Shown here: one piece after another, positions 4,631-28,864 of the stretch
Numbering within the stretch: the stretch's first letter is position 1
Layout: each line of letters opens with the position of its first letter
Origin: Elusimicrobia bacterium CG_4_9_14_3_um_filter_62_55
Lineage (GTDB): Bacteria; Elusimicrobiota; Elusimicrobia; UBA1565
Assembly: GCA_002790095.1 (NCBI GenBank)
Contig: PFUL01000145.1
Span: 1-35,846, forward strand
Direction of reading: 5' to 3'
DNA length: 35,846 nucleotides
Made by a program: the position numbers and the translations under genes
The notes under the pieces: model-generated
Databases searched by the model: none
The model's input: only the letters and a program-made list of their open reading frames with translations
Told to the model about the DNA's origin: nothing

Positions 4631-4669
4631 ATGGCCGACGAGAACACCCTGACGCGGGTGCAGGCGTGA
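4631..4669 (+). CDS. 12-codon leader ORF overlapping the caspase start
   Basis: ATG at 4631 follows a GGAGG (4619-4623) and encodes MADENTLTRVQA before a TGA at 4667-4669. That stop overlaps the caspase GTG start (GTGA). The caspase GTG has no Shine-Dalgarno of its own, so translation is probably coupled through this leader. It may instead be the relic of a longer gene's N-terminus. Confidence 0.4.
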   Translation: MADENTLTRVQA

Positions 4670-5907
4670 AGCGGGCTTTGGCCGCCGCCGCTCTGCTGGC
4701 CGGCTGCACCTCGACGGCCGTGGTGCGCGACGCCTCCGGCGACATCGATCTTGCCTTTTGCGCGTTCGACGCGAATCCCGGCGGGCAATGGGGCAGTTTT
4801 TTCGCACGGAAGATGCGCGAACTTCCGCCGCCGTCCTTTGAGAGCGTGCGGGGGATCGCTTCTCTGAACGAAGCCGAGGGCTGCGATCTCGCAGCGGAGA
4901 TCCGCTCCTCCGGAGCGACGATTCTCTCTCCGACGAGCGCGACGGTGTATTCGGCCGCGTCGCGAAAGAAGTTGTTCTCCGTGAGTGCGACCGGCCGGGG
5001 CCAGCCGGGAAAGCTCGGCCGCTCGATCCTCAGGGAATTTCAGCGGGACGGCGAGCCGTATCGGCTGGCGCTCGCCGAACGCGCGGCCCGCGGAAACGCG
5101 TACGCACCGGCGCGTCCCGGCGCACCTAACGCCCGGCGTTCCGACGTTGACTCGCCCGGTTATCGCGCGCCCCAACGCCCGAACGACTTCGCGGTCGTGA
5201 TCGGCATCGACGGCTACAAAGATTTGCCGCGTGCAGAGTTCGCCGAGCGCGACGCCGAAGCGGCCGCCTCTCATTTCGCCGCGCTCGGCGTTCCGAAGCG
5301 CCACATCGTCTCGCTCTATGGAGAGAACGCGACTCGCACGGGTCTGACCAAATACTTGGAGGAATGGCTGCCGCGCAACGCGAAGCCCGAATCCACGGTC
5401 TACTTCTTTTTCTCGGGGCACGGCGCGCCGGACCCGAAAACCGGAGCGGCCTATCTCGTGCCGTGGGACGGCGACGCGTCTTTTCTCAAATCGACCGCCT
5501 ATCCGCTGGACAAACTCTATTCTGAACTCGGCAAACTCCCGGCGAAGCGCGTCGTCGTGGCTCTCGACGCGTGCTTTTCCGGCGCGGGGGGGCGCTCGGT
5601 GCTCGCGAAGGGAGCGCGGCCGCTGGTGACGAAGGTCCGACTCGCCTCGCGGCCGCTCAAAAACCTGACGATGCTGACCGCCTCCGCGGGCGACGAAATC
5701 ACGACCACGCTCGACGCCCAGGGACACGGAGTCTTCACCTACTACCTGCTCAAAGGCCTCCAAGGCGCGGCGGCGGACGCTTCAGGGACGATCACGGCGA
5801 CCGGCCTGTACGAATACCTCCGGCCGAAGGTGCAAGAGGAAGCCCGATTGCAGAACCGCGAACAGACTCCGTCCTTGTTCTATATCACCGACCCGGTGCT
5901 GCGATGA
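4666..5907 (+). CDS. Caspase-like (C14/metacaspase-type) lipoprotein peptidase
   Basis: A 413-residue protein starting at GTG 4666. A lipoprotein signal ends in LAGC (Cys14), so the enzyme should sit membrane-anchored outside the cytoplasm. Residues about 18-165 form an N-terminal domain of unknown type, followed by a Pro/Arg-rich linker. The caspase p20-like domain begins near residue 174 (FAVVIGIDGYKDLP). It has the catalytic His252 (FFFSGHGAP) and Cys303 (VALDACFSGAGG). The C-terminus (GLYEYLRPKVQEEARLQNREQTP) is shared with the remnant at 4431-4580. Such bacterial orthocaspases usually cleave after Arg or Lys, and their biological roles are mostly unknown. Its stop overlaps the YciI start (ATGA), so the two are co-translated. 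Confidence 0.9.
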   Translation: MKRALAAAALLAGCTSTAVVRDASGDIDLAFCAFDANPGGQWGSFFARKMRELPPPSFESVRGIASLNEAEGCDLAAEIRSSGATILSPTSATVYSAASRKKLFSVSATGRGQPGKLGRSILREFQRDGEPYRLALAERAARGNAYAPARPGAPNARRSDVDSPGYRAPQRPNDFAVVIGIDGYKDLPRAEFAERDAEAAASHFAALGVPKRHIVSLYGENATRTGLTKYLEEWLPRNAKPESTVYFFFSGHGAPDPKTGAAYLVPWDGDASFLKSTAYPLDKLYSELGKLPAKRVVVALDACFSGAGGRSVLAKGARPLVTKVRLASRPLKNLTMLTASAGDEITTTLDAQGHGVFTYYLLKGLQGAAADASGTITATGLYEYLRPKVQEEARLQNREQTPSLFYITDPVLR

Positions 5908-11217: not shown

Positions 11218-12444
11218 ATCAAAAACACATTCGAAGCCTTAGGCTTATCCAAGGAATTATGCCGGGCCGTGGCCGATAAAGGCTATACCCGGCCGACGCC
11301 GATCCAGGCGCAGTCCATCCCCGCGATTCTGGAAGGACGAGACATTTTCGGAGGCGCGCAAACGGGAACCGGGAAGACGGCCGGCTTCACCCTCCCCCTC
11401 TTGCAGCTCAACGCCGAACGCGCGGGCGACGGCAAGCGGCGCATTCGCTCGTTGATTCTCGTTCCCACGCGAGAACTCGCGGCGCAGGTCTCCGAAAGCG
11501 TCCGCCGCTACGGCGCGCATTTGCCCCTGAAATCGGCGACCGTGGCCGGCGGCATCCCCATGCGCTTTCAGTTCAGAGCGATCGAGGGCGGCGTGGACAT
11601 TTTGATCGCGACTCCCGGGCGGCTGCTGGACCTGCTCAAACGCAAGAGCATTTCCCTCAAGCATTTGAACGTGCTGGTGCTCGACGAGGCCGACCGGATG
11701 CTGGACATGGGATTCATGCCCGACATCCGCGAGATCTTAACGCATGTCGGTCCGGAGCGGCAGACCTTGATGTTCTCCGCGACCACGCCCAAACCCATCG
11801 AGACTCTGGCGCGCACGATCCTCAATGACCCGCTCCGGGTGCAGGTCGGCGAGGAAAACCAGGTCCCCGAAAACATCTCCCATGTCGTCTACTTCGTTTC
11901 CCGCAGGAACAAGCCCGAAGCGCTCGTAAAGCTCTTCAAGGAAGGACGGTGGGGCCAGGTTCTGATCTTCACCCGGACGAAACTCGACGCGGATTCCCTG
12001 AAAGACACTTTGATGGAGCGCGGACTAAGCTCCAAGGTGATTCACGGCGGCAAGCCGCAAACCGTGCGCACGACGACGCTCAAGAATTTTAAAACAGGAA
12101 AAATCAAAATCCTGATCGCGACCGATGTGGCCGCCCGGGGCCTCGATATCGACCAGCTGCCGCATGTGGTCAATTTCGAACTCCCGCAGTCTCCCGACGA
12201 TTACGTACACCGCATCGGCCGCACGGGACGCGCGGGGAACAAGGGAACCGCCGTTTCCTTGGTCTCCCAAAACGAACGGCACAGCCTCGCGCGCATCGAA
12301 AAGCACATCAAGAAATCGTTTCTGCGGGAAAAAATCAAAGGATTCGAAGAATTCGCCGCGCCCCATAAAGGCGCCGGCAAGTGGCGACGCTCGAAGCGAA
12401 AAAAATTCGATCCGTTCAAAGGCGCGATCGCTAAAAAGCGCTAA
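11218..12444 (+). CDS. DEAD-box RNA helicase (RhlE-like), apparent ATC start
   Basis: An ATP-dependent RNA helicase with all core motifs: Q motif GYTRPTPIQ, motif I AQTGTGKT, Ia [24 protein letters not shown], then in the second RecA domain [20 protein letters not shown] and HRIGRTGR. The basic tail ([13 protein letters not shown]) suits RNA binding. The family N-terminus (M-x-F-x-x-LGLS) is encoded upstream of the GTG at 11269 as [23 protein letters not shown], whose first codon is ATC at 11218. No ATG, GTG or TTG lies in frame between the previous gene's stop and 11269. From ATC the protein has 408 residues. Its stop overlaps the convergent copA stop, with no terminator between. Likely roles are rRNA maturation or mRNA decay. 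Confidence 0.88.
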
Positions 12445-12641
12445 ACCGCTTTATACCCCGCTTTCTCCACCGCCGCCCGCAGCGCCGCTGGATCCACGCC
12501 ATCGCGAGATTCGATCACGGCCGTACCGCCCTCTAGAGATACGTCGACCTTCGTCACGCCCTGCACGCCCTGCAGCGCTTCGGTCGCGTGGCGTACGCAG
12601 TTCTGGCAGGTCATCCCCTCGATCTTGAGATTCGTGATCAT
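12441..12641 (-). CDS. copZ: CopZ-like copper chaperone from an internal start within copA
   Basis: The ATG at 12641 ([19 protein letters not shown]) is preceded at 7 nt by AGGAGGG (12655-12649), one of the strongest Shine-Dalgarno sequences here. It would yield a 66-residue ferredoxin-like domain with the Cys pair CxxC, the normal size and sequence of a free CopZ. It shares the frame and stop codon with copA. I infer that copZ was a separate gene whose upstream copA stop was lost. Independent translation is likely but not shown. Confidence 0.6.
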
Positions 12642-14879
12642 CGATTTTCCCTCCTTTTTCAAATTCGAGCGCGCGGGCGCGAAATTCTTCAAGCGAAGCG
12701 CGTTTAAAACCACCGAAACGGAACTCAGCGCCATCGCCCCCGCGGCGAACATCGGATTAAGCGACGGTCCGCCGAAGGCGAACAAAAGACCCGCCGCCAC
12801 CGGGATTCCCGCGGCGTTGTAGGCCAACGCCCAGAAGAGATTCTGCTTGATGTTGCTCAGCGTCGCCCGGCTGAGAGCGACGGCGTCGACCACCCCGTTC
12901 ACGCTCCCGCGCATCAAGACGATGTCCGCGGATTCGATCGCGACGTCGGTCCCGGCGCCCATCGCGATGCCCACTTCCGCCAGCGCGAGCGCGGGGGCGT
13001 CGTTGATCCCGTCGCCCACCATCGCGACCTTCTTCCCCCCGGCCTGCAGTTCCCGGATTTTTTCCGCCTTTTCCGAGGGAAGCACCCCGGCGAAGACCCG
13101 CGAAATCCCCAACCCGCCGGCCACGGCCTCGGCCGTCGCGAGGGAGTCGCCGGTCAGCATCGCGACTTCCAAACCCATCGCGCGCAGCGCCGCCACCGCC
13201 TCCCGGCTTTCGGGGCGGACGCGGTCGGAAATCGCGATTAAGCCCGCCGGCTCCGCGTCGACGGTGACGAAGACCAGAGATTTTCCCTCGCGGGCCAATT
13301 TCTGAAAATCCGCGGCGGGGCCGTCGCGGCCGACCGAGACTTCCCGCCCCTCGACCCTCGCGCGAACGCCTCTTCCGGTGAGCGCTTGAAATCCTTCCGC
13401 TTTGGGAACCGCGACCCCGCGCCGGCGGGCCTCTTCGATCACCGCCCGCGCGAGCGGGTGTTCCGAGCCGGCTTCCGCGGCGGCGGCCAAACGAAGCAGA
13501 TCGTATTCCTTAAAGGAGCTCGCCGGGACCAGGTCGGAAACGGTAGGCTTCCCTTCGGTGAGGGTTCCGGTCTTGTCGAAAACGATCGTATCGAGCCGTC
13601 CCGCCGTTTCGAGCGCCTCCCCCCCCTTAATGAGCACCCCCAACGAGGCGCCGCGCCCCGCGGCCACCATAATGGCCGTGGGAGTCGCCAACCCCAGCGC
13701 GCAGGGACATGCGATCACCAACACCGCGATGAAAGTCTTCAGCACGAACGCCGTCGGCATGCCCGCCCACGCCCAACCTAAAGCGGAGAGCGCCGCGATC
13801 GCGATCACGACCGGGACGAAGGTTCCGGCGATCGTGTCGGCGATGCGCGCGATCGGAGCCTTGCTGCCCTGAGCTTCCTCCACCATGTGAACAATGCGGG
13901 AAAGCACCGTGTCCTTCCCGACGCGCGTCGCGCGGACCCGGATAAATCCGCCGCCGTTGATCGTGGCTCCGGTCACGGAGTCGCCCGCCTTTTTCTCGAC
14001 GGGCATCGGCTCGCCGGTCAGCATCGATTCGTCGACGCTGGTGTTCCCATCGACGATATCTCCGTCGACCGGAACCCGTTCCCCGGGACGGATCGCGAGG
14101 AAATCCCCGACGCGGACCTCGGAAAGCGGCACCTGGACTTCCTCGCCGTCTTGAGTGATTCGGGCCGTCGCCGGGCTTAAAAGCATCAACTTCTCGACGG
14201 CTCCCGCGGCGCGGTTTTTGCTCGTCGCTTCCAGCATCCGTCCGAGCAGGATCAGCGTCAAGATGACGCCGGCGGTTTCGTAATACAGGTGCATCGCCGT
14301 CTCGGGATGCCCGGACCAGACGAGGACCGTATTCCAAAGGCTGTAGACGAACGCGGCGCCTGCTCCGACCGCGATCAACGAGTCCATATTCGGATCGGCC
14401 CGATACAATCGATAGAAGCCGATGCGAAAGAAATCGCGGCCCACCGCCAGTATCGGCAGCGACAGCAGCAGTTGGACGCCCGCATAGCGGCCCGGCGCGC
14501 TCGAGGGACTGAGCGCGGAGGGAAGGGACAGCCCGACCATTTCCGCCATCGCCAAAACGAAAAGCGGGGCGGTGAAGGCCGCAGCGAACGCGAGCTTGCG
14601 CCGCAGGGCGGCGAGTTCCCCGTCGCGGCGATCGCGCGTCTTCCCCGGATCGGCGTCTTCCGCCGCGATCCCGTAGCCGGCCCTCTCGACCGCGCCGCGA
14701 ATCCGATCCACCGAGGGTTCCCCCGCGGAGAACGAAACACGCGCGGTTTCAGTCGCCAGGTTCACCTGGGCAGAGGAAACCCCCTCGACGCCCGACAAGG
14801 CTTTTTCCACATGGAGTATGCAGGAGGCGCAGGTCATCCCTTCGATGCGGACGGTGAGCCGGGCGTCTTCCGTTTTCAC
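12441..14879 (-). CDS. copA: Cu(I)-exporting P1B-type ATPase CopA with C-terminal CopZ-like domain
   Basis: An 812-residue copper pump of the inner membrane. Domains in order: N-terminal heavy-metal domain (GMTCASC, residues 14-20), membrane helices, actuator with TGEP ([15 protein letters not shown]), metal channel CPC ([13 protein letters not shown]), phosphorylation motif DKTGT, nucleotide-binding [16 protein letters not shown], and the last helices ending [13 protein letters not shown]. CopA proteins normally stop there. This one reads on through a short linker ([11 protein letters not shown]) into a second heavy-metal domain with GMTCQNC, the size of a free CopZ chaperone. An internal ribosome binding site could also make that domain alone. 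The start lies 4 nt after the csoR stop, so both form one operon under CsoR control. Confidence 0.95.

Positions 14880-19826: not shown

Positions 19827-19830
<4 letters not shown>
19618..19830 (-). CDS. DUF2892-family small membrane protein
   Basis: A 70-residue protein with two hydrophobic segments (LIAGSFILISLGLGFWV and WFAFTAFVGANLIQSAF). It ends in a Cys-containing tail (CLMEDILRRLGCDGPKGESC), a pattern of the DUF2892/YgaP-membrane family. Its ATG overlaps the RND pump stop (ATGA), so it is co-translated. DUF2892 proteins often follow RND permease genes in this way. The function is unknown. Confidence 0.85.
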
Positions 19831-23029
<3,199 letters not shown>

Positions 23030-23033
<4 letters not shown>

Positions 23034-24400
23034 TGCAGTTCTCCGAGCAGATTCTTTCCGATCTCCGCGACGGCCTCCTCGTCCATTCCGCCCGAGGCGG
23101 CGATCACCCGCGCCCGACCGGCATGCAAACCGTAGAACGTGCGCAAGCGCGCTTCTTCGGCGTCGGCGAGCCCCGACTCCGCGCGAAGCACTTCGAGAAT
23201 GCTCTGCCGGCCTTCGCGGTACAGCGGCCTGAATTTCTCGATGGACGCCCGCGCCCGCCTCAGCATCTGCTCCGCCAACGGCAGCGTGCGGGCGGCCCCC
23301 TCGTAGGCGCTGCGGGCGCGCGCAAGTTCAATCTCGGCCGCCTCCCGCACGCGGCGGGCCTCGTCCGCACCCGCTTCCCCGCGCGCCTTTGCGGCCGCGG
23401 TTCGGGAAAGGTAGGTCGGATCCCCGAACGCAAGCGACGCCCGGACGCCGACCATTCGCGTCGCCGGATTCGAGGACAGATCGCGGCTGTGGGTCTCGAT
23501 TCCCCCGAAGGCCTCGACGCGCGGAAGCAAGGTCATCCTCTCGGCGCGGCGTACGGCTGCGGCCGCCTCCGCGTTCAGCGCGGCCCGCCGAACATCGGGC
23601 CGCGAGTCGATCGGGGCGGCACTTTTTGTGAATTGAAACCCCGCGTCGTCCGTCGGCGACGACAGGGTCCCGCTCAATGTGATGCTCGCGGGATCGCGCG
23701 CCAGCAGCACGCCCAGAGTGCGCCCAATCGCTTCTCGCCCGGAATTCGCCTCCTCAAGCCGCACCCGGAGCCCGCCGAGCACGGCCTGAGCCGCTTCGTA
23801 ATCGGACCCCAAGACCAAGCCGCGCGCTTTCAGTTTATCCGCGCTTCCAATTTCGACTTCAGCGGAGGCGATGCGCGCTGCCAGCGAATGCGCCAACGCC
23901 TCGATCATCAGCCCCCGCAGATAGAGATCGACGACGCTTTCGCGCAATCCCTGCCGACCCGCAAAAACGCCCAATTCGGCTTGGCGCTCCGAAACCCGCG
24001 CCAACCGGCGCCGCGAGTCGAGTTGGAACCCGGTAAACACCGGAACGCCTATTTCGATCCCGCTGGAAAAGTCATTGAGCGCTCCGGGGTCGTTGAGCGC
24101 GCCGATCGCGAAGTTCGCCGGCCCGAAATCCCCCTGTCTAAGCAGCGAACCGAAGACATAGACCGGATCGTCCCCGCGGGTAAAACCCGCCTTGGCCCTG
24201 AGAACCGGCAGACGGCTTAGATCCCAGACCGACCGCTCGGCCTTGGCCGCACGCAGCGCGGCTTCGGCGGCGGCCGTTCCAGGATTGCGCGCGAGAGCGG
24301 CGTCCACAGCCTCCGGGAGAGTCAGCGCGGCGGCGTCGGCGAAAGCCGCAAAAATAACGGCGACGGCCAGAACGGATAGAAAATGGATAGGGAACCTCAT
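23030..24400 (-). CDS. TolC-family outer-membrane efflux protein
   Basis: A 456-residue outer-membrane factor with a signal peptide (MRFPIHFLSVLAVAVIFAAFADA). The two repeats typical of the family begin LTLPEAVDAALARNPGTAAAEAALRAAKAERSVWDLSRLPVLRAKAG and, in the second half, RPDVRRAALNAEAAAAVRRAERMTLLPRVEAFGG. Long Ala/Arg/Glu helices between them form the periplasmic tunnel. Near the C-terminus, FRPLYREGRQSILEVLRAESGLADAEEARL is the family motif with the Glu of the aperture. Its stop overlaps the RND start (ATGA), leaving no room for an adaptor gene. Confidence 0.93.
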
Positions 24401-24451: not shown

Positions 24452-24694
24452 TTACTTGTATTTTTTTCGTGCACGCAGTTTCGCGCGCAATCGTTCCCGA
24501 AGGGTTCGGGCGGGCGCAGTCTGCGCTTGAAGATGAAAAACCGAAACCGTTCGGCGAAGGTTGCGGAGGAAGGCTTCGCAGGGCGCGCAGTCCTTCAAAT
24601 GCCGATCGAGATGATCGCAAAAGGAGTCGTCGAGAGTCCCGTCGATGTAGTCGGATAGGCGCTTGACCAGCTGCTTGCAACGAAGCGCCTTCAT
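24452..24694 (-). CDS. Small zinc-finger anti-sigma factor
   Basis: An 80-residue protein with the anti-sigma zinc-binding pattern H-x3-C-x2-C (HLKDCAPC) after a helix LVKRLSDYIDGTLDDSFCDHLDRH. It ends with a basic stretch (RERLRAKLRARKKYK) and has no transmembrane segment, so it is a soluble anti-sigma of the ZAS type, which often senses redox state or metals. Its ATG overlaps the sigma factor stop (ATGA). It should hold the ECF sigma until signal arrives. Confidence 0.88.
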   Translation of the reverse strand: MKALRCKQLVKRLSDYIDGTLDDSFCDHLDRHLKDCAPCEAFLRNLRRTVSVFHLQAQTAPARTLRERLRAKLRARKKYK

Positions 24695-25296
24695 GCGGAC
24701 CGCCCGCTCATGTACGCGTCCAACCGATCCCGCAGAAACATGCGTCCCCGGTGCAGACGAGATTTCACCGCCGCGACGCTCAATCCGAGCACCGTCGCGG
24801 TTTCCTCGTTGGAAAGGCGCTCAATGTCCCGCAGGCTCAACACGAGCCGATAATCGACGGGCAGTTCCTGAAGCGCCTTGCGGACCGTCTCCTTGATCTC
24901 CCGTTTCTGAGCCGCCTCGTCGGGTTCGAACGTCCAATCCTTGACGTCGCCGGCCGCGGCGCGCCCGGCCCGGGCGGGATCGTCCAACAGCGGAACGAAC
25001 GGCTCCCGTTTCCTTTTCCGATGGCGCATCCAGCAAAGATTGGCCGCGATCCGGTACAGCCAGGTCCCCAGATTGGAGTCCTTCCGAAATTTTCCGATCT
25101 TCTCGAAGGCCGTCAAAAAGGTCTCCTGATAGACATCCTCGGCGTCGGACGGAAGCCCGGAGCAGACGCTCTTGGCAAGACGGAAAATCTTGTCCTCGTA
25201 GCGGCGAATCAATTGATCGAACGCGTCCGTATCCCCGCTTTTGCTGGCGGCGATCAGACTATTTTCGCTGGGGAGGTCGGCGACGGATTCCTTCAT
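24691..25296 (-). CDS. ECF-type RNA polymerase sigma factor
   Basis: A 201-residue sigma factor. Region 2 includes FDQLIRRYEDKIFRLAKSVCSGLPSDAEDVYQETFLTAFEKIGKFR and GTWLYRIAANLCWMRHRKRKR. Region 4 is ALQELPVDYRLVLSLRDIERLSNEETATVLGLSVAAVKSRLHRGRMFLRDRL. A 40-residue linker separates them. I start at ATG 25296, which follows an extended -10 by 8 nt; an upstream TTG at 25314 lies before the promoter. It lies ahead of the TolC-RND-DUF2892 genes on the same strand and probably controls them and itself. Confidence 0.95.
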   Translation of the reverse strand: MKESVADLPSENSLIAASKSGDTDAFDQLIRRYEDKIFRLAKSVCSGLPSDAEDVYQETFLTAFEKIGKFRKDSNLGTWLYRIAANLCWMRHRKRKREPFVPLLDDPARAGRAAAGDVKDWTFEPDEAAQKREIKETVRKALQELPVDYRLVLSLRDIERLSNEETATVLGLSVAAVKSRLHRGRMFLRDRLDAYMSGRSA

Positions 25297-25304
25297 CCTC
25301 CGCG

Positions 25305-25313
25305 ATTCTAACA
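25305..25313 (-). promoter_or_regulatory. Extended -10 promoter of the sigma gene, leaderless type
   Basis: TGT-TAGAAT on the minus strand ends 8 nt before the ATG at 25296. A GGAGG overlapping the gap sits too near the ATG to act as a Shine-Dalgarno. Confidence 0.45.
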
Positions 25314-25351
25314 CTTAACGGGGAGGTCTTCGGTCCCGCGGAACGAACGGC

Positions 25352-26100: not shown

Positions 26101-26204
26101 GGGGTCGTTCGTCAAGTTGTTTAAGTTGTTCAAGTTATTCGTTGTCCTGACAAAGAAGATATCTCAATAACTTGAATAACTCAAACAACTTGACGAACGG
26201 CCCC
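26101..26204. repeat. 39-bp inverted repeat with internal 9-bp repeats
   Basis: Arm 26101-26139 and arm 26166-26204 match at 36 of 39 positions and are separated by 26 nt. The arms contain tandem 9-mers (CAAGTTGTT, TAAGTTGTT, CAAGTTATT) and are far more AT-rich than the flanking genes. The outer ends are GGGG and CCCC. The element lies between the glycosyltransferase stop and the phosphatase start. It looks like a REP- or MITE-type palindrome and could also act as terminator or stabiliser of mRNA. Confidence 0.8.
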
Positions 26205-26208
26205 GAAT

Positions 26209-26826
26209 CTATCCGTTGAGACGGAGTCCGCGTTCGTAGCGGTCGTTCATGTCCTGGGGAGAGCGGCCGAGGCGATATTCCAATTTCAGGAGTTGGTTCA
26301 GCAGCGCCTGACGCCAGACCCCTCGGGTCGTGAAGCGGACCGCGGAGGTCGTGGATAGGAACGGCAGGACGCGCGGACGGGCGCGTTCCCGGAGGATTTT
26401 AGAGAGTTCGGTGTCTTCGAAAATCTCGACGGCCGGGATCGACCGCGTCAGCAGTTCCCGGCGGAAAAAAATGCAGTGGTCGAGATAGAGAATGCCGTGG
26501 CGGGGTCGGACTCGGTTCGAGTACCAACTGGTAAAACGGAGCAAATAGTGATCCGCGTCGAAGCGATGCGTAAATCCCCCCCATTCCAACTCCTCGGCGT
26601 GATCGCGCAGCCATTCAAGGCCGGCGCGTTCCACCAAGGAACGGGGATGGTGCAGCAGGATCATATCCCCGCGACTCGCGTCGATCCCGCGCTGGAGACG
26701 CTCGGCACGAGTCTTCCCGGCGCCGCGCAAGACCTCGATGCCCTCCACTTCCATCAACCGCCGGAGGATGCGTTCGGTCCATTCCGTTTTCTCGTCGTTG
26801 AGAACCGGAAGGACCACGGAAAGCAC
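26209..26826 (-). CDS. Glycosyltransferase, TIGR04283-like (family 2)
   Basis: A 205-residue family-2-type glycosyltransferase, starting at GTG 26826. The nucleotide-binding strand is LSVVLPVLNDE. MILLHHPRSL replaces the usual D-x-D with H-P-R. WGGFTHRFD, LYLDHCIFFRRELL, FEDTELSKILRERARPRVL and the C-terminal RGVWRQALLNQLLKLEYRLGRSP match the TIGR04283 group (radical-SAM-associated transferases). The group is found near ArsM and radical SAM genes in other bacteria. Here it lies 9 nt behind the radical SAM gene. A role in transferring or making the sugar part of an arsenosugar is an inference. Confidence 0.82.
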   Translation of the reverse strand: MLSVVLPVLNDEKTEWTERILRRLMEVEGIEVLRGAGKTRAERLQRGIDASRGDMILLHHPRSLVERAGLEWLRDHAEELEWGGFTHRFDADHYLLRFTSWYSNRVRPRHGILYLDHCIFFRRELLTRSIPAVEIFEDTELSKILRERARPRVLPFLSTTSAVRFTTRGVWRQALLNQLLKLEYRLGRSPQDMNDRYERGLRLNG

Positions 26827-26835
26827 GAGGCCGCC

Positions 26836-27819
26836 TTATCCCGCGCAGGACGCGCCGCCGAGAACGCAAAAGGCGGCGCAATGGGGATGGACGAGGCTGA
26901 CGGGCTTGAGCGATTCGACGAGGGATTTTCCCATCGAGAAGCGATCGTCGTAGGCGAGCAAGGTACAGGCCTGGACGCGCAAAACGCCCTCACCCTTGCG
27001 CTTGACGAGCATCCGCGAACTCGCGCACATCACCGAAGCGGGCGCCTTCTTCAGGAGGCCCCAGCACTCCGTGGTGATTTCGGGGAACTCGGCGGACTCG
27101 TCCATTTCAGGGAAGACCGTCAGCACTTTCGGATCGGACGCGTCGAGCGCGATTTTAAGACGCTCGAACAGCGCCCGGTAGCCGTCCTTCGAGGCCCCCG
27201 GCTCCTCGTCGGTCAACGCCCTTCCCGCGACGCCGACCGGAAACCCGTTTTCCGCGAGCCAACGCAGTCCGAGTACGGCGGCGTCGAACGCCCCTGCGCC
27301 GCGTTCGCCGTCGTGCACTGCGGCCGTATGGTGGTCCAGAGAAACCCGGAAACGAAGTTTCGCGCCGAAACGCCCCTTGAGCGAAAGCAGGTCCGCACGC
27401 CGGTTCATCAACGGTTTCATGGCGTTGGTCAGGATCAGAACCTCGAAACCGCGCTCCAGGCAGAGCGCGGCCATCGCCGTCATCTCCGGATTGAGGAACG
27501 GTTCTCCCCCGGTAAAGCCGATCTCGCGCGTCCCCAAGCCCTCAGACTCGATTTCATCGAGAAAGGGGCGCAGATCGGCGACCGACAGGTACGCCAAACG
27601 GTCGTTCCTAGGGGAGGATTCGATGTAGCAGTGGGCGCAGGCGATGTTGCACAGCGTCCCCGTATTCACCCACAGCGTTTCCAACCTCGTCGGGGAAACG
27701 GTCGCGCGGGCCTTTCCTCCGGCCGTGACGGCCGGGTCCGACCATTTGGGCCGGGCGTCCTCATAGCCCCCATGAAGCCCGGCACGACGGGGCTCCGCCC
27801 CGTCAGCAGCAGCCGGCAT
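26836..27819 (-). CDS. Radical SAM protein, candidate organoarsenical enzyme
   Basis: A 327-residue radical SAM enzyme with the Fe4S4 motif C-x3-C-x2-C (TLCNIACAHCYIE), the GGE motif (IGFTGGEPFLNPE) and a long SAM-binding region. The C-terminus is Cys-rich (PHCAAFCVLGGASCAG), possibly binding a second cluster. The N-terminal 40 residues look unstructured, and the start is uncertain. It overlaps the arsM end by 17 nt. In other organisms ArsS (a different subgroup) transfers a 5'-deoxyadenosyl group to arsenic in arsenosugar synthesis. This protein does not look like TIGR04167 ArsS, so it may do an analogous or a different step. Confidence 0.85.
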   Translation of the reverse strand: MPAAADGAEPRRAGLHGGYEDARPKWSDPAVTAGGKARATVSPTRLETLWVNTGTLCNIACAHCYIESSPRNDRLAYLSVADLRPFLDEIESEGLGTREIGFTGGEPFLNPEMTAMAALCLERGFEVLILTNAMKPLMNRRADLLSLKGRFGAKLRFRVSLDHHTAAVHDGERGAGAFDAAVLGLRWLAENGFPVGVAGRALTDEEPGASKDGYRALFERLKIALDASDPKVLTVFPEMDESAEFPEITTECWGLLKKAPASVMCASSRMLVKRKGEGVLRVQACTLLAYDDRFSMGKSLVESLKPVSLVHPHCAAFCVLGGASCAG

Positions 27820-28864
27820 TCGCGTCCGCGTCCGCGACGGTTTTTTTGAACGGGACGTCGAGACCGCAGTCCTTGAAGATCCCGTAGTGGACGCTCGTGC
27901 CGCCGATGAAGACGAAATGCCGCTTGAACCGGGACTCCGAGAGCATCAGCGAGGTGTTCGCGCAAACCTCGTGCGCCTTCCCGGCGAGGAAGCGATGATG
28001 ATCGTCCAAATCGAAGTACTGCGGACATTCCGTCATCGTCCCCTTGTAGACGACCGCCTGCCCGAAATCCTCGCAGGCGTCCTCCAGCGCGGGGATCTTG
28101 AAGAGCCGGTAGGTCGCCGAATAGAACCGAATGTGTCCGGCCTTCGCGCGAACGTCCTTGTTCCCCAATTCGAGCGGCCGCGATTCCACCAGCCGCGGGT
28201 CGGAAAAGCCGGCCTTGCGCGCCAGGCGAAGGAAATCGTTCCAATAAAGCGCCCCGGACAGGCATTCCCCGTAAAGCACCTTGTCTTCCCGGAGTTCCTC
28301 GGGAACGCGCCGATCGGCGTACACGTCGGAGAAGTACAGTTCCCCACCGATCTTCAAGACCCGCCACGCTTCGCGAAGCACCGACTCCTTGTTTTTCGCC
28401 AAATTGATCACGCAGTTGGAAACGATCAGGTCGAACGACGCGTCGGACAATCCGGCCTCGTAGAGACGTTCGATGTTGCCGTTCTTGAACTCGACGTTCG
28501 AGCGCGCGTACCCGAAGGTCTTCGCGTGATGATCCAGATGCTTGCGGGCGACGAGAAGCTGCTCTTCGGTCATATCGATCCCGACGACCCGGCCCTTCGG
28601 CCCGACCAACTGGGACAGCACGTAGCAATCCCGCCCGGAACCCGAACCCAGGTCCAGCACCGAAAGTCCGTCGACGTCGTGGGGGACGATCAACCCGCAG
28701 CCGTAGTAGCGGGACAGCACTTCGTCGTGAACCTTGCCCAGCGCCTTTCGAATGTAATCCGGGGTTCCCGCGGTATCGCAGCAGGCGTCGGTTTTCAAAT
28801 CCGTGCTGGAAGCGAGCGTTTTCCCGTAATATTCACGAACGTCTTCTTCGACCTTCGAACTCAT
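27803..28864 (-). CDS. arsM: Arsenite S-adenosylmethionine methyltransferase ArsM
   Basis: A 353-residue methyltransferase. The SAM site is VLDLGSGSGRDCYVLSQLVGPKGRVVGIDMT. ArsM features are visible: KTDACC near residue 28, YYGCG (residue about 57), SNCVINL and GECLSGALY, whose cysteines correspond to the arsenic-binding cysteines of known ArsM. GGELYFSDVYADRR is the family signature, strongly resembling the algal CmArsM. The C-terminal domain (about residues 230-353) ends in NAGCC, an extra Cys pair that could bind As(III). It adds methyl groups to arsenite. The start at 28864 has GGAGG upstream. It heads the arsM-radical SAM-glycosyltransferase operon. Confidence 0.93.
   Translation of the reverse strand: MSSKVEEDVREYYGKTLASSTDLKTDACCDTAGTPDYIRKALGKVHDEVLSRYYGCGLIVPHDVDGLSVLDLGSGSGRDCYVLSQLVGPKGRVVGIDMTEEQLLVARKHLDHHAKTFGYARSNVEFKNGNIERLYEAGLSDASFDLIVSNCVINLAKNKESVLREAWRVLKIGGELYFSDVYADRRVPEELREDKVLYGECLSGALYWNDFLRLARKAGFSDPRLVESRPLELGNKDVRAKAGHIRFYSATYRLFKIPALEDACEDFGQAVVYKGTMTECPQYFDLDDHHRFLAGKAHEVCANTSLMLSESRFKRHFVFIGGTSVHYGIFKDCGLDVPFKKTVADADANAGCC

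Follow-up and report, generated by a model that had tools for sequence, protein, structure and literature searches.

A conserved three-gene arsM operon of Elusimicrobiota with a non-ArsS radical SAM protein, a candidate unit for organoarsenical biosynthesis

The window analysed here is a stretch of 35,846 nucleotides (nt), positions 1 to 35,846 of contig PFUL01000145.1, from Elusimicrobia bacterium CG_4_9_14_3_um_filter_62_55, an Elusimicrobiota genome of 4.3 Mb that is 95% complete. On its minus strand lies an operon of three genes and no more: arsM, a radical SAM (S-adenosylmethionine) gene, and a TIGR04283-like gene. A first-pass annotation had described it as a tight operon that may make an organoarsenical by a variant route. 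The radical SAM protein belongs to a family to which we gave the name RSAM2. The operon and its downstream flank contain the following features:

27803..28864, minus strand: arsM, 353 amino acids (aa), an arsenite S-adenosylmethionine methyltransferase of the long (CrArsM) type that ends in CC
26836..27819, minus strand: RSAM2, 327-aa radical SAM protein whose Cys-rich C-terminal region is twitch/SPASM-like
27628..27651, minus strand: radical SAM [4Fe-4S] motif CX3CX2C (C57, C61, C64) in TLCNIACAHCYIE
26845..27027, minus strand: C-terminal cysteine frame of RSAM2, C265, C285, C314, C318 and C325 (MCxS..RM ... ACTL ... HPHCAxFCVLGGxxC)
26209..26826, minus strand: TIGR04283-like protein of predicted GT-A fold, 205 aa, lacking the N-terminal Asp motif and DXD
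26638..26652, minus strand: HHPRS in place of the canonical HADT (DXD) motif
26101..26204, no strand assigned: long imperfect palindrome, possibly an RNA hairpin

The arsM gene starts with an ATG at 28864, with a GGAGGA ribosome-binding site immediately 5' of it, and stops at 27803. The ATG of the radical SAM gene at 27819 lies inside the end of arsM, giving a 17-nt overlap, and the third gene, separated from the end of the radical SAM gene by 9 nt, runs from a GTG at 26826 to 26209; the tight arrangement was confirmed in all these details. Directly downstream, the palindrome has 39-nt arms (92% complementary) and a 26-nt loop, with a predicted hairpin energy of -56.1 kcal/mol (z -11.4); no T run follows it, and it possibly ends the transcript. 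No second copy was found within the window, and the idea of a repeat element was dropped. The palindrome of the first-pass annotation is thus real, but the acid phosphatase gene beyond it does not adjoin the operon in relatives and was dropped as a pathway member. Neither arsR nor an arsenite exporter gene was found inside the three-gene operon, an absence from which biosynthesis had been argued; however, an arsR-arsD-arsA-arsC-acr3 operon is present on a different contig of the same genome, and this argument is weakened because export and reduction are covered there.

The arsM product matched Chlamydomonas ArsM (PDB 5evj) with E 5e-111 over residues 6-335 (phmmer), and cysteines occupied the four catalytic positions of the alignment (ACC, YYGCG, SNCVINL and GECLSGAL), so that homology to a characterised ArsM along the length and the catalytic residues both bore out the assignment. 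The Pfam match was Methyltransf_31; the NCBIfam arsenite methyltransferase PRK11873 matched under its cut-off (E 1e-52), and the arsinothricin-type ArsM model reached 160 bits against a cut-off of 500. The CC tail, singled out previously as an extra feature, is present but common among related ArsM proteins.

RSAM2 passed Pfam PF04055 (E 2.6e-15) and matched no NCBIfam family at cut-off. The window protein scored 61.3 bits against the ArsS model TIGR04167 (cut-off 300) and 95.5 bits against the Rv1681 family NF049973 (cut-off 380), its best NCBIfam match, which covers the barrel; membership of Rv1681 was rejected by this score, although all 31 RSAM2 members match both models. When 60 radical SAM proteins were placed in a maximum-likelihood tree, the 21 RSAM2 rows were monophyletic (support 100/99) and the 11 ArsS rows formed a clade of their own (100/100). 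A protein of genome G069 was the sister of RSAM2 (98/89), and a metallophosphoesterase-linked set, designated group C, was next out (99/99). ArsS, the radical SAM domains of the RSAM-ArsM fusions described below, MftC and MoaA were all excluded from the clade that unites RSAM2 with group C (99/99), as was the Rv1681-like protein, and MftC and MoaA stood in a separate fork (95/78). The earlier statement that the protein is not ArsS was therefore upheld by both score and tree, and a place among the peptide- or cofactor-related proteins MftC and MoaA was rejected by tree position.

Profile comparisons aligned RSAM2 with group C over the full length (E 6e-50), with the Rv1681-like protein over the barrel (E 9e-25) and with ArsS over the core and barrel (E 9e-20), while group C and ArsS aligned almost end to end (E 9e-18). 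The CX3CX2C motif is invariant in 31 RSAM2 sequences, and the identical spacing is invariant in ArsS; this motif and the Cys-rich C-terminus had been proposed as differences from ArsS, but both occur in ArsS as well. The five cysteines of the C-terminal frame are invariant across 37 sequences of RSAM2 and its sister groups, and probably form an auxiliary cluster or an arsenic-thiol site. The ArsS tail HCxGCTAGxGSSCxG and the RSAM2 tail HPHCAxFCVLGGxxC have a frame that looks alike by eye, but the isolated C-termini reached only E 0.016, short of significant homology, whereas those of RSAM2 and group C matched each other at E 6.6e-10. An AlphaFold2 model, for which one plasmid-derived row was left out of the input, showed a confident radical SAM barrel and C-terminal domain (predicted local distance difference test, pLDDT, 89.8). 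The nearest solved folds by Foldseek were BlsE, followed by SkfB and SuiB, generic radical SAM/twitch relatives from which no catalytic site could be derived.

Group C loci (L010-L013, L055-L058, L115, L116) adjoin a metallophosphoesterase gene in Elusimicrobiota and Acidobacteriota with no ArsM nearby, and some add a major facilitator superfamily (MFS) transporter, TIGR04283 and TIGR04282. The Elusimicrobiota group C proteins carry a CxxC tail and end in CRT.

The third protein scored 89.1 bits against TIGR04283, below the cut-off of 182, and two relatives scored 85 and 77 bits. Alignment with 41 TIGR04283-like proteins showed that the N-terminal VDGGSxD aspartates are missing and that HHPRS stands where HADT is expected, so that the GT-A signature motifs are replaced or deleted. 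HHPRS, YLDHC and EIFEDTELS are unchanged in all seven operon copies even though these are 62-72% identical to the window copy, so that the motif loss is not a matter of decay. Ordinary nucleotide-sugar transfer by this protein seems doubtful because the DXD and N-terminal Asp motifs have been lost. The AlphaFold2/Foldseek model suggested a GT-A fold with low confidence (pLDDT 69). Of the earlier label, a TIGR04283-like glycosyltransferase, the family likeness stands, but the residues that mark a glycosyltransferase do not.

Among 341 Elusimicrobiota genomes, RSAM2 was present in eight, at nine loci that all have one order. The arsM gene precedes RSAM2 at all nine wherever the contig permits, and the two frames overlap by 14-17 nt at the seven loci checked (7/7), a sign of translational coupling. 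The gene order recurs with proteins that are 57-79% identical, and the operon is therefore not a chance arrangement. The two outcomes that the first-pass annotation had named as refuting it, a neighbourhood not shared by other genomes and a radical SAM protein placed firmly among peptide-modifying or cofactor enzymes, thus did not arise. At seven of the nine, a short glycosyltransferase-like gene of the window type comes next; the remaining two (the second copy of G025, and G048) have canonical TIGR04283 and TIGR04282 genes and a PiT-type transporter. The combination typical of arsenosugar clusters (ArsM, radical SAM, TIGR04283 and TIGR04282) is thus complete in G025 and G048 and incomplete in the window genome, which has no TIGR04282 and a TIGR04283 match below cut-off. 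Genome G025 carries two arsM-RSAM2 operons (L104, L103), one with canonical TIGR04283/TIGR04282 and PiT and one with the DXD-less protein.

Four types of radical SAM protein were found beside or fused to long ArsM in Elusimicrobiota: genuine ArsS, above its cut-off in G018 and G060; RSAM2; the sister type, whose gene overlaps arsM in G069; and an RSAM-ArsM fusion of ~850 aa with the radical SAM domain N-terminal and ArsM C-terminal. A search with the fusion alignment detected the last in 18 genomes, two of them as truncated matches (for example L112:5651-8188; also L111, L113, L114 and L142-L148). A radical SAM gene was fused to arsM or lay within 3.5 kb of it in 27 of 28 long-ArsM loci among the matches listed at E 1.6e-42 or better; at the one remaining locus, in the 73% complete genome G053, ArsS lies on a different contig. 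The same companions recur around ArsS, RSAM2 and fusion cores, namely PiT, TIGR04283, TIGR04282, DUF547, a VTT membrane protein and a flavin adenine dinucleotide (FAD) oxidoreductase. All of them accompany ArsS and an ArsM 50% identical to that of the window in G018; PiT, TIGR04283 and TIGR04282 accompany ArsM and RSAM2 in G025 and G048; and PiT, TIGR04283, TIGR04282, VTT and FAD genes accompany the fusion in G027, G033 and G047, with DUF547 found in G027 and G033. Since the companions recur around different radical SAM cores, RSAM2 occupies the ArsS slot in Elusimicrobiota clusters.

A swap was also seen outside the phylum between a Roseomonas plasmid cluster with RSAM2 and a Burkholderia glumae plasmid cluster with ArsS, which have in common DUF547, a metallophosphoesterase-like gene and an additional radical SAM gene (52%). 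The Roseomonas cluster (L031:4034-10994) comprises, lined up in a single row, TIGR04282, DUF547, a TrsS/Tes-like second radical SAM gene, RSAM2, PhnD/PhnE/ATPase transporter genes and the metallophosphoesterase. ArsS was absent from every RSAM2-bearing Elusimicrobiota genome, and the counts among the 341 (RSAM2 8, ArsS 9, fusion 18) showed no overlap; the numbers are too small for this to surprise, so genome-level exclusion was not accepted as proof of replacement, which the swap in position supports more strongly. An Acinetobacter portensis plasmid (L121:1-7019) holds an arsenosugar-type cluster with PiT, mtnP and an ArsM 56% identical to that of the window, and no radical SAM gene nearby.

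The interchange of RSAM2, ArsS and the fusions in one cluster context, together with the conserved operon, supports the earlier proposal of a variant route to an organoarsenical, and the operon probably makes an organic arsenic compound by a variant of a known route; the supposed differences in motif from ArsS, the CC tail, the local absence of arsR and exporter, and the phosphatase no longer contribute to it. We favour, with moderate confidence, the reading that these three genes are a pared-down unit for organoarsenical biosynthesis of the arsenosugar type, in which the radical SAM enzyme is not ArsS. In the proposed mechanism, ArsM would methylate As(III) to mono- and dimethylarsenite, and RSAM2, translated from the overlapping start, would cleave SAM by means of its [4Fe-4S] cluster. 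RSAM2 would then do what ArsS does elsewhere and join to the trivalent methylarsenical a carbon group taken from SAM, in all likelihood 5'-deoxyadenosyl, and the GT-A-like third protein would modify or bind the product. The deoxyadenosylation model rests on the ArsS reaction, which PMC12159101, citing Cheng et al. 2021, gives as 5'-deoxyadenosylation of dimethylarsenite; that RSAM2 acts on arsenic, which group it transfers and what the third protein does are inferred from sequence and gene context. In gammaproteobacteria, RSAM2 adjoins a methylthioadenosine (MTA) phosphorylase-like gene and TIGR04282/TIGR04283, and the former would fit a 5'-deoxyadenosyl product; an MTA-phosphorylase homologue is encoded elsewhere in the window genome. 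Since no TIGR04282 was found in the window genome, the product in this organism may not be a complete arsenosugar.

ArsM is usually a detoxification enzyme. If detoxification were all that the operon serves, ArsM would methylate arsenic and the radical SAM and glycosyltransferase-like proteins would be accessory or unrelated passengers, which the full ars operon on the other contig would also suit. The conserved translational overlap, the arsenosugar-type companion genes and the fusion of the two enzymes in a further 18 Elusimicrobiota genomes (in two of them a truncated match) argue against passengers, and we consider this explanation very unlikely.

Several observations weigh against the organoarsenical reading. 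Fifteen of 20 RSAM2-bearing proteobacterial genomes, including Rubritepida flocculans DSM 14296, Pseudooceanicola batsensis HTCC2597 and Primorskyibacter flagellatus, had no ArsM at E 1e-15, though several are drafts and the absence is weak evidence; in the other five, ArsM was of the long type in three and a weak match in two. A TIGR04283 protein was present in 19 of the 20, so that RSAM2 tracks TIGR04283 more than ArsM. The RSAM2 core scores higher on Rv1681, a family of unknown function, than on ArsS, the C-terminal cysteine likeness to ArsS is not significant by itself, and TIGR04282 is missing from the window genome. RSAM2 could accordingly serve the TIGR04282/TIGR04283 pathway in general and have a non-arsenic native substrate, ArsM having been recruited secondarily in Elusimicrobiota or methylating another metalloid or a thiol product. 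The placement of group C with a metallophosphoesterase, sometimes with TIGR04283 and without an adjacent ArsM, and the PhnDEC-type transporter genes after RSAM2 in Roseomonas are in keeping with such a role. Against it stand the nine Elusimicrobiota loci, where RSAM2 is paired with arsM in overlapping frames wherever the contig permits, and the finding that several ArsS clusters likewise have no nearby arsM. Missing ArsM therefore does not separate RSAM2 from ArsS; beyond the cyanobacteria that have been studied by experiment, ArsS is open to the same doubt. We regard a non-arsenic native substrate as rather unlikely, yet the frequency of RSAM2 without ArsM raises doubt whether the TIGR04282/TIGR04283 pathway always concerns arsenic. 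An unannotated 35% relative of RSAM2 spans two reading frames on Marinobacter adhaerens plasmid pHP-187 (L032:6839-7904) and is probably a broken gene.

RSAM2 might instead form another carbon-arsenic (C-As) bond, for example with an aminocarboxypropyl or sugar-derived group, in which case the operon product would belong to an undescribed organoarsenical class. Its position outside ArsS, its own invariant C-terminal cysteine set, its pairing with a DXD-less GT-A protein rather than the standard two glycosyltransferases, and the coexistence in G025 of a standard-type and a reduced operon, which suggests two products, would all agree with this. ArsL, the known aminocarboxypropyl enzyme, has no profile similarity to RSAM2, however (hhalign probability 1.2%), and the gammaproteobacterial MTA-phosphorylase neighbour points to 5'-deoxyadenosyl; such a bond therefore appears quite improbable.

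Beyond the reduced-unit reading that we favour, it is conceivable, if doubtful, that RSAM2 is a C-As-bond-forming family distinct from ArsS and ArsL which, with the DXD-less GT-A protein, makes an undescribed organoarsenical class, and that Elusimicrobiota evolved several separate ArsM partners (RSAM2, the sister type, the fusion and ArsS). Only ArsS and ArsL are named as radical SAM C-As bond formers in the literature consulted. The addition of a third family, one that replaces ArsS in otherwise matching clusters, together with the fusions, would widen the routes to organoarsenicals, explain their production by bacteria without ArsS, and offer a directly testable two-gene system. No publication on RSAM2, the RSAM-ArsM fusion or a non-ArsS arsenosugar enzyme was found in the open-access literature, subscription papers being mostly outside this search.

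Extracytoplasmic function (ECF) sigma genes lie near many of the clusters (L107, L109, L112, L142, L144-L146, L129) and possibly regulate them. In the window, an ECF sigma gene with a zf-HC2 anti-sigma gene occupies 24452-25314, and a 61% relative lies ~3 kb from the cluster in G005. Elsewhere in the window are a resistance-nodulation-division (RND) efflux permease and a TolC-like outer membrane protein adjoining the sigma/anti-sigma pair (19827-24400), a copper-type P-ATPase that has, besides its N-terminal metal-binding domain, a CopZ/MerP-like one at the C-terminus (12441-14879), and a protein with a caspase-like Peptidase_C14 domain (4666-5907).

Among known systems, the Rv1681 family is the best NCBIfam match of RSAM2 over the barrel, but the score is far below the cut-off and the Rv1681-like protein lies outside the clade. 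The arsinothricin operon arsQML is, like the window operon, compact and pairs ArsM with a non-ArsS radical SAM gene (PMC8552651); ArsL, however, has ~430 aa with CX3CX2C near position 190, ArsQ is not in the window operon, and judged by its genes the latter is not an arsinothricin operon. The RSAM-ArsM fusion of Elusimicrobiota has the same two domains and companion genes as RSAM2 loci, but in a single chain whose radical SAM domain falls in a separate clade and lacks the RSAM2 C-terminal cysteine set. The arsenosugar cluster (ArsS TIGR04167, ArsM, TIGR04283/TIGR04282) shares with relatives of the window operon the companions PiT, TIGR04282, DUF547, VTT and FAD oxidoreductase, and with some an MTA-phosphorylase-like neighbour. 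It differs from the window operon in that the radical SAM protein of the latter falls far short of the ArsS cut-off and belongs to a separate clade, the operon has three genes, the genome has no TIGR04282 and the third protein has no DXD; the likeness lies in an ArsM gene with neighbours that encode a radical SAM protein and a protein of the TIGR04283 type.

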